From Candidatus Desulfaltia bathyphila (GTDB taxonomy: Bacteria > Desulfobacterota > Desulfobacteria > Desulfobacterales > ETH-SRB1): a stretch of DNA of 38,082 nt. This document shows, one piece after another, positions 4,555 to 7,540 of this stretch (position 1 is the first letter of the stretch; every line of letters starts with the position of its first letter). The stretch is from assembly GCA_014381545.1 (NCBI GenBank), contig JACNLL010000054.1:1-38082 (forward strand). Reading direction: 5' to 3'. The notes under the pieces were generated by a model, which was not told where the DNA came from, made no database searches, and was given only the letters and a program-made list of their open reading frames with translations. The translations under genes were made by a program, and so were the position numbers.

Positions 4555-4860
4555 ATGGTATTTGACCCAATCGATGAAATATCCAATAGTAATGCCCACA
4601 AAATCATACGTGAAATTGTTACGGGTGGAACTATTATTATAAGTAGCCATGCAAAAGAAAGAATGATAGAGCGAAAATATACCGCTCATGATGTTGAATA
4701 CATTTTGTTAAATGGGGAAATCACAAAAAAAGAGTTCAATACCAAGGCGCAAAATTGGGCTTACACTATCAAGGGTGAAGGCATAGATGGTGACGATGCC
4801 GGCGTTGTAGCTGCAATAGTCAGGCGGATGTCAGCAGTTTTAATAACTGTATTGAGTTGA
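4555..4860 (+). CDS. DUF4258-type toxin candidate (MqsR-like)
   Basis: A 101-residue protein with the DUF4258 core: SSHAKERMIERKYTAHDVEYILLNGEI at residues about 30-56, followed by a beta strand with WAYTIKGEG and a C-terminal AAIVRRMSAVLITVLS strand. DUF4258 proteins belong to the RelE/BrnT/MqsR-like group of small RNases and are often toxins. The next gene is an MqsA-like zinc-finger/HTH antitoxin 13 bp away, so this is very probably a type II toxin-antitoxin pair with toxin first. TATAAT (4543-4548) lies only 7 bp from the ATG and there is no Shine-Dalgarno, so the message may be leaderless. Confidence 0.82.
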   Translation: MVFDPIDEISNSNAHKIIREIVTGGTIIISSHAKERMIERKYTAHDVEYILLNGEITKKEFNTKAQNWAYTIKGEGIDGDDAGVVAAIVRRMSAVLITVLS

Positions 4861-4873
4861 GGGGGTGGAAACA

Positions 4874-5401
4874 ATGGGGAAATGCTATTTATGTGGTAAT
4901 GACATACAAATAATCAAAGATAAACCCTACAAATACAATGAGTGCGGCCTTGATGTTACCCTTTTTGGCATAATACAATACCATTGCCAAAATTGTAACG
5001 AATCATACGCTTCAATACCCAACATGCAAAAACTGCATCGTGTTATTGGGGCTTATATTTGCGAAAAGAGAAAAGCTCTCCTAAAACCCGAAGAGATCAA
5101 ATTCTTACGAAAAGACCTTCACCTTAAAGCAAAAGATTTAGCTCAAGCTTTAGGCGTTACGGCGTCAACTGTATCGCGGTGGGAAAACGGAAAGAAAGAA
5201 ATTGGTGAAGCCCATGACCGTTTGTTACGTTCTATTTACATCATGTATACTTCTGAGCAATCCAACCACTTTATCTGCGATGGAGTTATTAATCTATTCA
5301 AAGAACTCCCGGCAAAACGCAAGAAAATCAAACAACCAGTGACAATATCGTTAAATCCCCAAGAGTGGTTAAGTTGCATGGGCGAATCCTGTCTTGCATA
5401 A
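4874..5401 (+). CDS. MqsA-like antitoxin: YgiT-type zinc finger plus XRE HTH
   Basis: Starting at the ATG at 4874 (5 nt after GGGGGTGG; the in-frame GTG at 4865 is the alternative), the protein has 175 residues. The N-terminal part is a CxxC...CxxC zinc finger (CYLCG at residues 3-7 and CQNCNESYASIP about 40 residues later). The centre is an XRE helix-turn-helix (LRKDLHLKAKDLAQALGVTASTVSRWENGKKEIG, positions about 73-106), matching the MqsA/YgiT fold order. The C-terminal 50 residues have no clear assignment. MqsA antitoxins neutralise their toxin and repress their own operon. The partner is the DUF4258 protein directly upstream. Confidence 0.85.
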   Translation: MGKCYLCGNDIQIIKDKPYKYNECGLDVTLFGIIQYHCQNCNESYASIPNMQKLHRVIGAYICEKRKALLKPEEIKFLRKDLHLKAKDLAQALGVTASTVSRWENGKKEIGEAHDRLLRSIYIMYTSEQSNHFICDGVINLFKELPAKRKKIKQPVTISLNPQEWLSCMGESCLA

Positions 5402-5473: not shown

Positions 5474-5504
5474 TTCTTGACAAAAAATAATAATAGTATA
5501 AAAG
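5474..5504 (+). promoter_or_regulatory. Probable sigma-70 promoter of the aromatic operon
   Basis: TTGACA at 5477-5482 is followed by an AT-rich -10 region: TAAAAG at 5499-5504 with a 16-bp spacer. Alternatively, TATAAA at 5497-5502 pairs with TTCTTG at 5474. Transcription would start near 5510, about 20 nt before the leader peptide start. Confidence 0.55.
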
Positions 5505-5532
5505 AGCTAAGAAACTTAAAAAAGGTAATTAA

Positions 5533-5610
5533 ATGACGCACAAATTTTCAGGCAAATATTTTAGTTATTATTGGTATTTTTATAATACCGGTTTGCCTGA
5601 GGTGCGTTGA
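5533..5610 (+). CDS. Aromatic-rich leader peptide of the shikimate/Phe/Tyr operon
   Basis: A 25-codon ORF with ATG at 5533 and TGA at 5608-5610, preceded by AAAAAAGG (5518-5525) 7 nt upstream. Residues 9-17 read YFSYYWYFY; with Phe5 the peptide holds nine aromatic residues (five Tyr, three Phe, one Trp) within positions 5-17. Such a run is the hallmark of a ribosome-stalling control peptide, as in trpL and pheL. The aromatic codons lie inside the 1:2 hairpin of the attenuator (5548-5600). The operon that follows makes chorismate, Phe and Tyr, so regulation by charged tRNA-Tyr, tRNA-Phe and perhaps tRNA-Trp is the natural reading. The evidence is direct sequence, not homology. Confidence 0.88.
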   Translation: MTHKFSGKYFSYYWYFYNTGLPEVR

Positions 5611-5656
5611 CGCTATTTAAAAAAATAATTAAACGCAAAAAGCCGTGGCAGACCTT
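5548..5656 (+). promoter_or_regulatory. Attenuator: anti-antiterminator and antiterminator stems
   Basis: Stem 1:2 is a perfect 9-bp pairing of TCAGGCAAA (5548-5556) with TTTGCCTGA (5592-5600); a nested GGTAT/ATACC hairpin (5573-5577 and 5585-5589) sits inside. The competing 2:3 stem pairs GGTTTGCC (5590-5597) with GGCAGACC (5647-5654), 8 bp with one G-U, and encloses TGCGTT/AACGCA (5603-5608 and 5632-5637). Stem 2:3 occupies the end of the terminator 5' arm, so it excludes termination. Stalling in the aromatic codons would free strand 2 and favour read-through. Confidence 0.8.
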
Positions 5657-5674
5657 AAACGCCGCGGCTTTTTT
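5637..5674 (+). terminator. Attenuator terminator (3:4 hairpin)
   Basis: A rho-independent terminator. The GCCGTGGC arm (5642-5649) pairs with GCCGCGGC (5661-5668) with one U-G, extended by five A-U pairs on the outside. The loop is about 11 nt and is followed by a U run. It lies 63 bp before the first structural gene and directly after the aromatic leader peptide. Confidence 0.88.
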
Positions 5675-5736
5675 GTTTTAAAAGGCCGTGGAGAATAAAA
5701 TGCTTCATGGCCTTTTTGCACAAAAGGAGGTATGTT

Positions 5737-6534
5737 ATGACAATTTTAGGCAAACGGATTAGGTTGGAACGTATAGTTAACCGGGATACAGGCAAAACAG
5801 TAATTGTTCCAATGGATCACGGCATTTCGGTTGGCCCTATTGACGGGCTGCTGGACATGAAGGAAACAATACAAAAGGTGGCAAGTGGAGGAGCCAATGC
5901 CATCGTGGAGCATAAGGGTCTTGTCGGTGAAGGCCATCGCGGGGGTGGGATAGATATAGGATTAATTTTACATTTGTCCGCATCAACCAGTCTTTCGCCA
6001 TATCCCAATGCCAAAACTCTGGTTTGTTCGGTTGAAGAGGCGATAAAATTGGGCGCTGACGGTGTATCTATACACGTAAATTTAGGAAATGGCGGTGAAA
6101 AAGAGATGTTAAATGATTTTGGAAAGGTAAGCTATGAGGCCCGCACATGGGGCATGCCGCTTCTTGCCATGATTTATCCACGTGGCGAGAAGATCAAGGA
6201 TGAGTATGATGTTAAGGTAATAAAGCATGCGGCACGTGTTGGAAGTGAAATGGGAGCCGATATTGTTAAGGTTTCATACACAGGCTCTGTAGAGACCTTT
6301 AGAGAGGTTGTCGCGGGCTGTTCAGTTCCCGTGGTAATTGCAGGCGGCGCTAAAATGGATTCAGACAGGGAGATATTGGAAATGGTAAAGGGTGCAATTG
6401 ATGCAGGCGGCGGCGGTGTTTCCATCGGCCGCAACGTCTTTCAGCACAAACATCCAGATCGAATAGTAAGGGCTATTTCAGGCATTGTTAATGACGGCAT
6501 CAGCGTGGAAGAAGGCCTGAAAATTTTAGAATAA
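5737..6534 (+). CDS. aroA': 2-amino-3,7-dideoxy-D-threo-hept-6-ulosonate (ADTH) synthase
   Basis: A class I aldolase of the DhnA/FbaB type (COG1830), 265 residues. It contains [11 protein letters not shown] near residues 28-38, the substrate Asp in GLLDM, the Schiff-base lysine in [10 protein letters not shown] (about residue 174) and the phosphate-binding [13 protein letters not shown] near 226. In methanogens this enzyme condenses a 6-deoxy-5-ketofructose-1-phosphate-type donor with aspartate semialdehyde. It thereby replaces DAHP synthase at the start of the shikimate pathway. The start ATG 5737 follows AAAAGGAGG at 5722-5730. It is the first gene of an eight-gene operon behind an aromatic attenuator and is paired with DHQ synthase II, as expected. 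A plain fructose-bisphosphate aldolase is the alternative, but context argues against it. Confidence 0.9.
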
Positions 6535-6547
6535 GAGGATTAATACA

Positions 6548-7540
6548 ATGAAAAAAATCTGGGTAAAGGTGGACCCCTGGAATAAGAAAATTGTAACAAC
6601 CGCTCTTGAAGGTGGAGCGGACGGCATAATGGTTCCAAAGGGATATAGCAAAAAGGTCAAGGAGCTTGGCGTAATACAAACAATTTCAGAAGACGGCGAC
6701 TTAAAGCCTGGTAAGGATGTTCTCTTTTTTACAATAAAAAGCGGAAAGGACGAAGAAGAGATTGTTAAGCTCTGCAAGAATAAAAAGGTAATTCTTCAGT
6801 GCAGCGACTGGACGGTGATTCCTCTTGAAAATCTGATAGCAAAAGGGGCTGATGTAATAGCGCAGGTTCATAATTTTAAAGAAGCGCAGACAGCTCTCGG
6901 TATTCTGGAAAAGGGGGTAAACCATATACTGTTTCATACCACCAGCGTAATTGAGCTGAAAAAAACCCTTTCCATGATTAAAGCAGTTGAGGATAAAACC
7001 GCTCTTGAGGAGGCCGAGATTGTTGAAATAACTCCTGTTGGAATGGGGGACAGGGTGTGCGTGGACACATGCACATCAATGGATTCAGGCCAGGGGATTC
7101 TGGTTGGCAACAGCAGCAGCGCCTTATTTCTGGTTCATGCTGAAACTGTTTCCAATCCTTATGTTGCTCCAAGGCCGTTCAGAATAAATGCAGGGCCGGT
7201 TCATGCATACACAAGGGTTCCCGGCGGAAAGACCAGATACCTTTCAGAACTTTCAGCAGGAGATCACGTGTTAATTGTTGATTTTCAAGGAAATACATCT
7301 GTTGGCACTGTGGGGCGCTTAAAGATCGAAAAACGTCCTTTAATGCTGATAAGGGCGGTTGTCGGCGACCTGAAGATAACAACCATCCTTCAAAATGCGG
7401 AAACAATTCGGCTGACAAACCCAAAAGGCAAACCGGTATCGGTCGTCAGCCTTTTGCCGGGCGATAAGGTTCTCGTAGCAGTTGAGGAATGCGGCAGGCA
7501 CTTCGGTCACAAGATAGATGAAACTATAACGGAAAAGTAA
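6548..7540 (+). CDS. aroB': 3-dehydroquinate synthase II
   Basis: A 330-residue protein matching the archaeal-type DHQ synthase II (COG1465, PF01959). The N-terminal MKKIWVKVDPWNKKIVTTALEGGADGIMVP, the central VGMGDRVCVDTCTSMDSGQGILVG (about residues 164-187) and the RPFRINAGPVHAYTRVPGGKTRYLSEL block (about 215-241) are all family signatures. The enzyme oxidatively deaminates and cyclises ADTH to 3-dehydroquinate using NAD. It follows ADTH synthase by 13 bp and precedes pheA by 9 bp, so the two act consecutively in one operon. Length is normal for the family. It is unrelated to bacterial AroB. Confidence 0.93.
   Translation: MKKIWVKVDPWNKKIVTTALEGGADGIMVPKGYSKKVKELGVIQTISEDGDLKPGKDVLFFTIKSGKDEEEIVKLCKNKKVILQCSDWTVIPLENLIAKGADVIAQVHNFKEAQTALGILEKGVNHILFHTTSVIELKKTLSMIKAVEDKTALEEAEIVEITPVGMGDRVCVDTCTSMDSGQGILVGNSSSALFLVHAETVSNPYVAPRPFRINAGPVHAYTRVPGGKTRYLSELSAGDHVLIVDFQGNTSVGTVGRLKIEKRPLMLIRAVVGDLKITTILQNAETIRLTNPKGKPVSVVSLLPGDKVLVAVEECGRHFGHKIDETITEK

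Follow-up and report, generated by a model that had tools for sequence, protein, structure and literature searches.

A probable ribosome-mediated attenuator with two terminators ahead of the common aromatic pathway operon in Desulfobacterales

The operon studied here lies in a 38,082-nucleotide (nt) stretch of Candidatus Desulfaltia bathyphila DNA (contig JACNLL010000054.1), the whole of which is called the window below; the operon and its leader region are on the forward strand. The first structural gene (5737 to 6534) encodes ADTH synthase (TIGR01949, 370.5 bits; cut-off, 299.45) and is preceded by the Shine-Dalgarno sequence AAAAGGAGG at 5722 to 5730. It is followed by the gene for 3-dehydroquinate synthase II (DHQ synthase II) at 6548 to 7540 (NF002627, 499.7 bits; cut-off, 392). 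Further NCBIfam matches identified chorismate mutase/prephenate dehydratase, aroE, aroA, shikimate kinase, aroC, and a tyrA-type prephenate dehydrogenase between 7550 and 13266. These matches bear out the original prediction, which placed ADTH synthase and DHQ synthase II at the start of the operon and tyrA at its end. All of these genes are on the same strand and are presumably co-transcribed.

A likely promoter, conserved in the genus, was found at 5477 to 5502 and consists of TTGACA (5477 to 5482) and TATAAA (5497 to 5502); the spacer of 14 nt is short, and the assignment of the −10 element is uncertain. Directly upstream of it, positions 4555 to 5401 hold an MqsA-family antitoxin-like gene (TIGR03830) and a small open reading frame (ORF), probably a toxin-antitoxin pair. 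Downstream of the promoter lies a leader ORF at 5533 to 5610, which encodes MTHKFSGKYFSYYWYFYNTGLPEVR and ends at a stop codon; AAAGG at 5521 to 5525, 7 nt from the ATG at 5533, is its putative Shine-Dalgarno sequence. The control codons of this ORF span 5545 to 5583, where 5 Tyr, 3 Phe, and 1 Trp occupy the 13 positions from F5 to Y17. The leader is thus the one predicted originally, with 25 codons and nine Tyr, Phe, and Trp codons in a run of 13.

RNA folding of the window sequence yielded five helices that can be formed by six segments. Segment 1 (5536 to 5557), which encodes conserved SGK/SGR residues, pairs with 5591 to 5607 to give helix 1:2 (−25.7 kcal/mol). Segment 2 (5590 to 5608), which codes for GLPxxR and extends to the stop codon, provides the 3′ arm of helix 1:2 and is also the 5′ arm of the antiterminator 2:3, formed with segment 3 at 5632 to 5654 (−20.9 kcal/mol). 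Within segment 3, positions 5638 to 5649 are the 5′ arm of terminator 1 (3:4), paired with 5661 to 5672 (−19.2 kcal/mol) and followed by a U-tract; segment 4 together with this U-tract covers 5661 to 5676. Positions 5662 to 5673 of segment 4 can alternatively pair with 5680 to 5691 (helix 4:5, −18.3 kcal/mol) in segment 5 (5680 to 5693). Segment 5 is in turn the 5′ arm of a second terminator-like hairpin (5:6; 5681 to 5716), in which 5681 to 5693 pair with 5703 to 5715 (−18.2 kcal/mol), U's follow, and segment 6 with its U-tract occupies 5703 to 5716. This hairpin, absent from the original prediction, sits between terminator 1 and the Shine-Dalgarno sequence of the ADTH synthase gene. The RNA of 5500 to 5700 was more stable than all 200 shuffled sequences (z = −3.65), so the folding proposed as a check of the prediction yielded its helices 1:2, 2:3, and 3:4 in a region stable beyond chance. 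A generic scan of the window for sigma-70 promoters and terminators reported neither the promoter nor the terminators; we set these negatives aside because the terminator loop exceeds the limit of the scan and the promoter spacing is short.

Conservation of the leader was examined in 136 distinct regions upstream of ADTH synthase. These came from 80 named contigs and from 291 genomes of the order Desulfobacterales, 148 of which have DHQ synthase II. A leader was defined as an ORF with at least 6 Phe, Trp, or Tyr (F/W/Y) in 13 codons, and the definition was applied to the 132 regions with enough sequence. Such leaders were present in 88.6% of the regions; the reverse strand gave 15.2%, and dinucleotide shuffles gave 6.4%. 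At least 9 F/W/Y in 13 codons were found in 52% of the 132 regions and in none of the reverse-strand and shuffle controls. The 119 leaders obtained average 26 residues, of which 4.7 are Tyr, 3.8 Phe, and 0.77 Trp. Their control codons are also strongly biased: at 117 loci, TTT (0.91) and TAT (0.82) were favoured over their synonyms far more than in the adjacent gene (0.58 and 0.68). Some ADTH synthase genes are without any leader. The ADTH synthase on contig VMTK01000058.1 (L059), which is labelled Candidatus Falkowbacteria, is 86% identical to that of the window, and this contig is probably mis-binned.

The original prediction suggested that the leader senses all three aromatic amino acids, mostly Tyr. 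Tyr codons are indeed the most abundant, but the composition of the leaders points mainly to Tyr and Phe. Trp codons occur in 82 of the 119 leaders and are missing from 37; to judge from the codons, sensing of Trp is not universal among them. As to the transcript, 95 of 118 leaders have TTGACA at a distance of 15 to 110 nt on their upstream side, a feature seen in 2.6% of shuffles; its presence ahead of most leaders suggests that the whole leader is transcribed. Two observations had been named in advance as counting against the prediction: a lack of conservation of the peptide or stems in close relatives, and a transcript start downstream of 5610. The first is not the case, since both the peptide and the stems are conserved, and the position of TTGACA, in the window as in most relatives, speaks against the second as far as sequence alone can show.

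The conservation of the stems was assessed by comparing the pairing of each sequence's own partner arms with that of arms permuted among sequences. Own arms outperformed permuted ones for 1:2, 2:3, 3:4, 5:6, and 4:5 (0/1,000 permutations each), and this covariation involves every one of the six segments. Three unrelated pairs served as negative controls (1:4, 1:6, and 2:5), and in these own arms were no better than permuted arms. A further control, 3:6, has the same repeat relationship as 4:5 and no role in the model, and it was near background (62/1,000). When only the 48 sequences less than 60% identical were retained, the z values were −6.3 (1:2), −9.2 (2:3), −9.3 (3:4), and −10.8 (5:6), while 4:5 gave −6.8 versus −2.3 for 3:6.

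Changes on both sides of a pair were then counted as alignment cells in 60 sequences (alignment A1), observed versus shuffled: 39 versus 16 for 1:2, 47 versus 24 for 2:3, 51 versus 14.5 for 3:4, and 57 versus 16 for 5:6. For 4:5, 23 such changes were observed against 9.0 expected (0/500 shuffles); the corresponding figures for the control 3:6 were 12 and 8.5 (51/500). The inner part of 2:3 (columns 113 to 118) is paired in just 57 to 63% of cells. With stem cores only and permutation within GC classes, 4:5 was not reached in any of 5,000 permutations, versus 273/5,000 for 3:6. We considered whether the 4:5 complementarity is a mere by-product of the resemblance between segments 3 and 5. This was rejected, since 3:6 would be an equal by-product and covaries far less, and direct selection on 4:5 is therefore the preferred explanation. 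Conservation and compensatory changes across Desulfobacterales thus support the complete 1:2/2:3/3:4 attenuator that had been proposed from the window.

Covariance model R1, built for the element, matched 57 of 58 relatives, and the second-best match in the window's own genome precedes trpE. This trpE attenuator (L297; G000:C10:15023-15209, minus strand) has the leader MKTIENHKIKDQLSIFWWWRAYINEFACGTSPT with the Trp run FWWWR and the same pair of hairpins. Sixty additional R1 matches were fetched; NCBIfam identified the downstream genes of representatives, and BLAST against references identified those of the others. All except one precede genes of aromatic metabolism: 12 DAHP synthase I-alpha, 5 DAHP synthase I-beta, 3 ADTH synthase, 26 trpE, 2 trpD, 1 trpC, 7 phenylacetate-CoA ligase (paaK), 2 chorismate mutase/prephenate dehydratase, and 1 aroE; the remaining match has no recognised gene downstream. 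These data indicated that the element is not confined to the ADTH pathway and also stands before trp genes, paaK, and the gene for ordinary DAHP synthase. The copies before DAHP synthase I-alpha (L315 to L321, L323 to L325, L329, and L332) are in genomes without detected DHQ synthase II, so that the same attenuator precedes either of two unrelated first enzymes.

The control codons track the downstream pathway. Common-pathway leaders contain on average 4.4 Tyr, 3.6 Phe, and 0.7 Trp per 13-codon run, paaK leaders have a mean of 5.9 Phe, and trp leaders have a mean of 3.0 Trp, a value biased somewhat upward because the choice of leader ORF for the additional matches favoured WW runs. Covariation of 4:5 was found again in the paralogous sets, at 8/5,000 versus 357/5,000 for 3:6 in the trp set and 1/5,000 versus 4,583/5,000 in the paaK set. 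Phe-rich leaders (e.g., MKIRFFYFCFFRFFSGFYFKKSTHGRAI) with tandem hairpins lie before paaK at nine loci (L301, L302, L303, L304, L334, L359, L361, L362, and L371), a hint that phenylacetate-CoA ligase may serve Phe synthesis (aryl-acid salvage) and not breakdown in these bacteria.

Several matches depart from the common arrangement. The window's own genome carries the hairpins before a phenylacetate-CoA ligase gene (L305; G000:C6:1608-1818, minus strand), where the leader ORF has apparently been deleted; TTGACA is directly ahead of 3:4 there, unlike in the congener L303, and the loss may be genuine or due to faulty assembly. At L337, the tandem hairpins are intact, a long palindrome replaces the leader, and no trpE is present downstream, possibly as a result of a rearrangement or an assembly artefact. 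The low-scoring covariance-model matches L306 and L312 were rejected as false, and some others proved to be antisense; like L337, they support none of our conclusions.

These comparisons bear on two accounts in which the leader is not a sensor. The ORF could encode a small functional protein or be a translation-coupling upstream ORF (uORF), the hairpins being a constitutive terminator or an RNA stabiliser, and the conservation of the peptide residues SGx...TGLPxxR could be taken in its favour. Those residues lie outside the aromatic run and coincide with arms 1 and 2, whose covariation is at the nucleotide level, and SG and GLP were therefore dismissed as a sign of a functional peptide. The run itself varies in order and length among leaders, and paralogous leaders exchange Tyr/Phe for Trp or for Phe according to the pathway downstream, all of which makes this account very improbable. 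Regulated terminators of similar size exist among riboswitch, T-box, and protein-binding classes, and the leader ORF could be incidental to an attenuator of one of these kinds. An Rfam search of the window and its paralogues found no family at the gathering threshold, including Phe_leader (RF01859), Trp_leader (RF00513), the his leader (RF00514), and the T-box (RF00230); Phe_leader reached 22.1 bits, where 55 is the gathering score. Moreover, the aromatic codons are located exactly in the 1:2 loop and follow pathway identity in the paralogues, so that an incidental ORF appears even slightly less probable than a functional peptide. We classed the element as an attenuator at the sequence level because the leader codons match the pathway product, the mutually exclusive helices 1:2/2:3/3:4 covary, and a terminator stands before the first gene. 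For this ordinary part of the mechanism, the reading is almost certainly correct.

The occurrence of the element was also surveyed in a sample of 247 genomes of the phylum Desulfobacterota, 78 of which have ADTH synthase. An aromatic-rich leader and a matching hairpin are located upstream of many of these ADTH synthase genes outside Desulfobacterales, and several families, such as the one with L259 to L262, are without an aromatic leader. A conserved ORF of 27 residues (about MKYEEALKYADSPTYLNELLKVRGAYK) replaces the aromatic leader before ADTH synthase at L259, L260, L261, L262, L264, L268, and L272. Genus g43 (L208 to L212) also has ADTH synthase without an aromatic leader; in one g43 genome (L360), it is the type I-beta DAHP synthase that has an aromatic leader, FFYYYYYWY. 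On balance, the sequences favour, by some way short of certainty, a phylum-wide attenuator family of Desulfobacterota in which one ribosome would decide two successive terminators, the same RNA would precede DAHP or ADTH synthase, and the control codons would have been adapted (Tyr/Phe, Trp, Phe) to the paralogous operons.

Sequence comparison establishes the parts of the element, their conservation and compensatory changes, the fit of the control codons to the pathway downstream, and the lineages that keep 3:4 without its U-tract; use of the promoter, pausing, stalling of the ribosome, termination, and the order of folding are inferred in the model that follows. Transcription would start near 5509, and RNA polymerase would pause after hairpin 1:2 as a ribosome translates the leader. 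Uncharged Tyr-, Phe-, or Trp-tRNA would stall this ribosome on the aromatic run in the 1:2 loop, where it would mask segment 1. The antiterminator 2:3 could then form and leave segment 4 free to pair with segment 5 as it emerges; neither 3:4 nor 5:6 would be made, and the operon would be transcribed. With enough charged tRNA, the ribosome would run on to the stop codon that closes segment 2 and prevent 2:3, so that 3:4 would terminate transcription; polymerases reading through terminator 1 would then encounter 5:6. When the leader was masked to 5588 in folding calculations, as by a stalled ribosome, the window RNA as far as segment 3 folded into 2:3. Once segment 4 was added, the equilibrium preferred 3:4 and 5:6 even with the region of the stalled ribosome masked, and antitermination must therefore depend on folding order, as in other attenuators.

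The link between the two terminators was examined through partial losses. By simple U-tract and stem criteria, which are crude and leave a handful of sequences borderline, both terminators are present in 89 of 120 sequences. In about 13, the U-tract after 3:4 is clearly missing, yet the 3:4 hairpin and 4:5 are both kept; about 10 have no usable 5:6 and retain the leader and 3:4. Outside the order, L224, L226, L229, L231, and L232 also have 3:4 without a U-tract.

An ordinary single-terminator attenuator, with 5:6 as a fail-safe or processing hairpin unlinked to the leader, would accommodate the sequences without usable 5:6. It would also agree with the result at the most stringent identity cut (22 sequences), where 4:5 was weak and barely above the control (z = −2.2 versus −1.4 for 3:6). 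However, 4:5 coevolves beyond 3:6 in the aro, trp, and paaK copies, and a terminator ahead of the first gene would permanently cap expression if it were unlinked. In addition, the sequences lacking a U-tract after 3:4 can terminate only at 5:6, so that stalling could act there only if 2:3 frees segment 4 and 4:5 disrupts 5:6; otherwise, 2:3 would be without effect. These lineages are our main reason for preferring the relay to an unlinked fail-safe hairpin, which we regard as unlikely, though far less so than the two accounts dismissed above. Thus, a six-segment relay by which one leader controls two terminators is probable. Taken together, the sequence data suggest, with high confidence, that a ribosome-mediated transcription attenuator, the two-terminator relay included, governs the operon for the common aromatic pathway and for Phe and Tyr synthesis.

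If so, the elements form, on one RNA scaffold, a natural series of codon swaps (Tyr/Phe, Trp, Phe), and a conserved attenuator before two unrelated first enzymes would offer a clean case of how regulation survives enzyme replacement. The relay, together with the lineages missing one or the other U-tract, would make a design question of trp and his attenuators, basal leakage versus sensitivity (PMC1183508), directly testable. TrpR and TyrR regulons have been reconstructed in gammaproteobacterial lineages by a regulon survey (PMC5343134). A 2013 survey of RNA motifs, which included ten Desulfovibrionales genomes, suggested that amino acid attenuators may originate in gammaproteobacteria, with little transfer (PMC3766115); a separate and diverse attenuator family in another phylum would change that picture. 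The open-access literature contained no report of attenuation for ADTH-pathway genes and, for Desulfovibrio or deltaproteobacteria, none of aromatic attenuation. To our knowledge, this is the first such regulatory hypothesis for bacterial ADTH-pathway genes.

Among known systems, the Phe leader (pheA/pheST) and the Trp leader (trpL) of gammaproteobacteria share with the element its control codons, the 1:2/2:3/3:4 alternatives, and a U-tract terminator, and the mechanism is likely the same. Unlike them, the leader described here mixes three amino acids, targets ADTH synthase, and has a second, linked hairpin. T-box RNAs of aromatic genes in Firmicutes likewise sense tRNA charging and control terminators, binding uncharged tRNA directly and without a leader peptide; no T-box match was obtained for our sequences. 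The uORFC-13-1 motif is a proposed uORF attenuator with Phe codons upstream of aroF in Acholeplasma, and it too is placed before the first enzyme of the shikimate pathway (PMC8632094). Compared by its published description, it is confined to Acholeplasma and environmental sequences, concerns an ordinary DAHP synthase, has at least 1 Phe codon where our leaders have a long aromatic run, and has no six-segment relay (PMC8632094). Closer in architecture is the his leader, whose segments A to F form A:B, C:D, and E:F versus alternatives such as D:E (PMC10989985), just as 1:2, 3:4, and 5:6 alternate with 2:3 and 4:5 here. In his, only the last hairpin has a U-tract, whereas most members of the present family, the window included, have one after both 3:4 and 5:6; the sequences without a U-tract after 3:4 resemble his in terminating only at the last hairpin. 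An attenuator model for his holds that an extra hairpin lowers basal readthrough (PMC1183508). Finally, the tandem attenuators of Salmonella mgtCBR also make more than one attenuation decision per leader RNA; they involve two short ORFs (PMC3641672), whereas in our case both terminators appear to be governed by one leader ORF.
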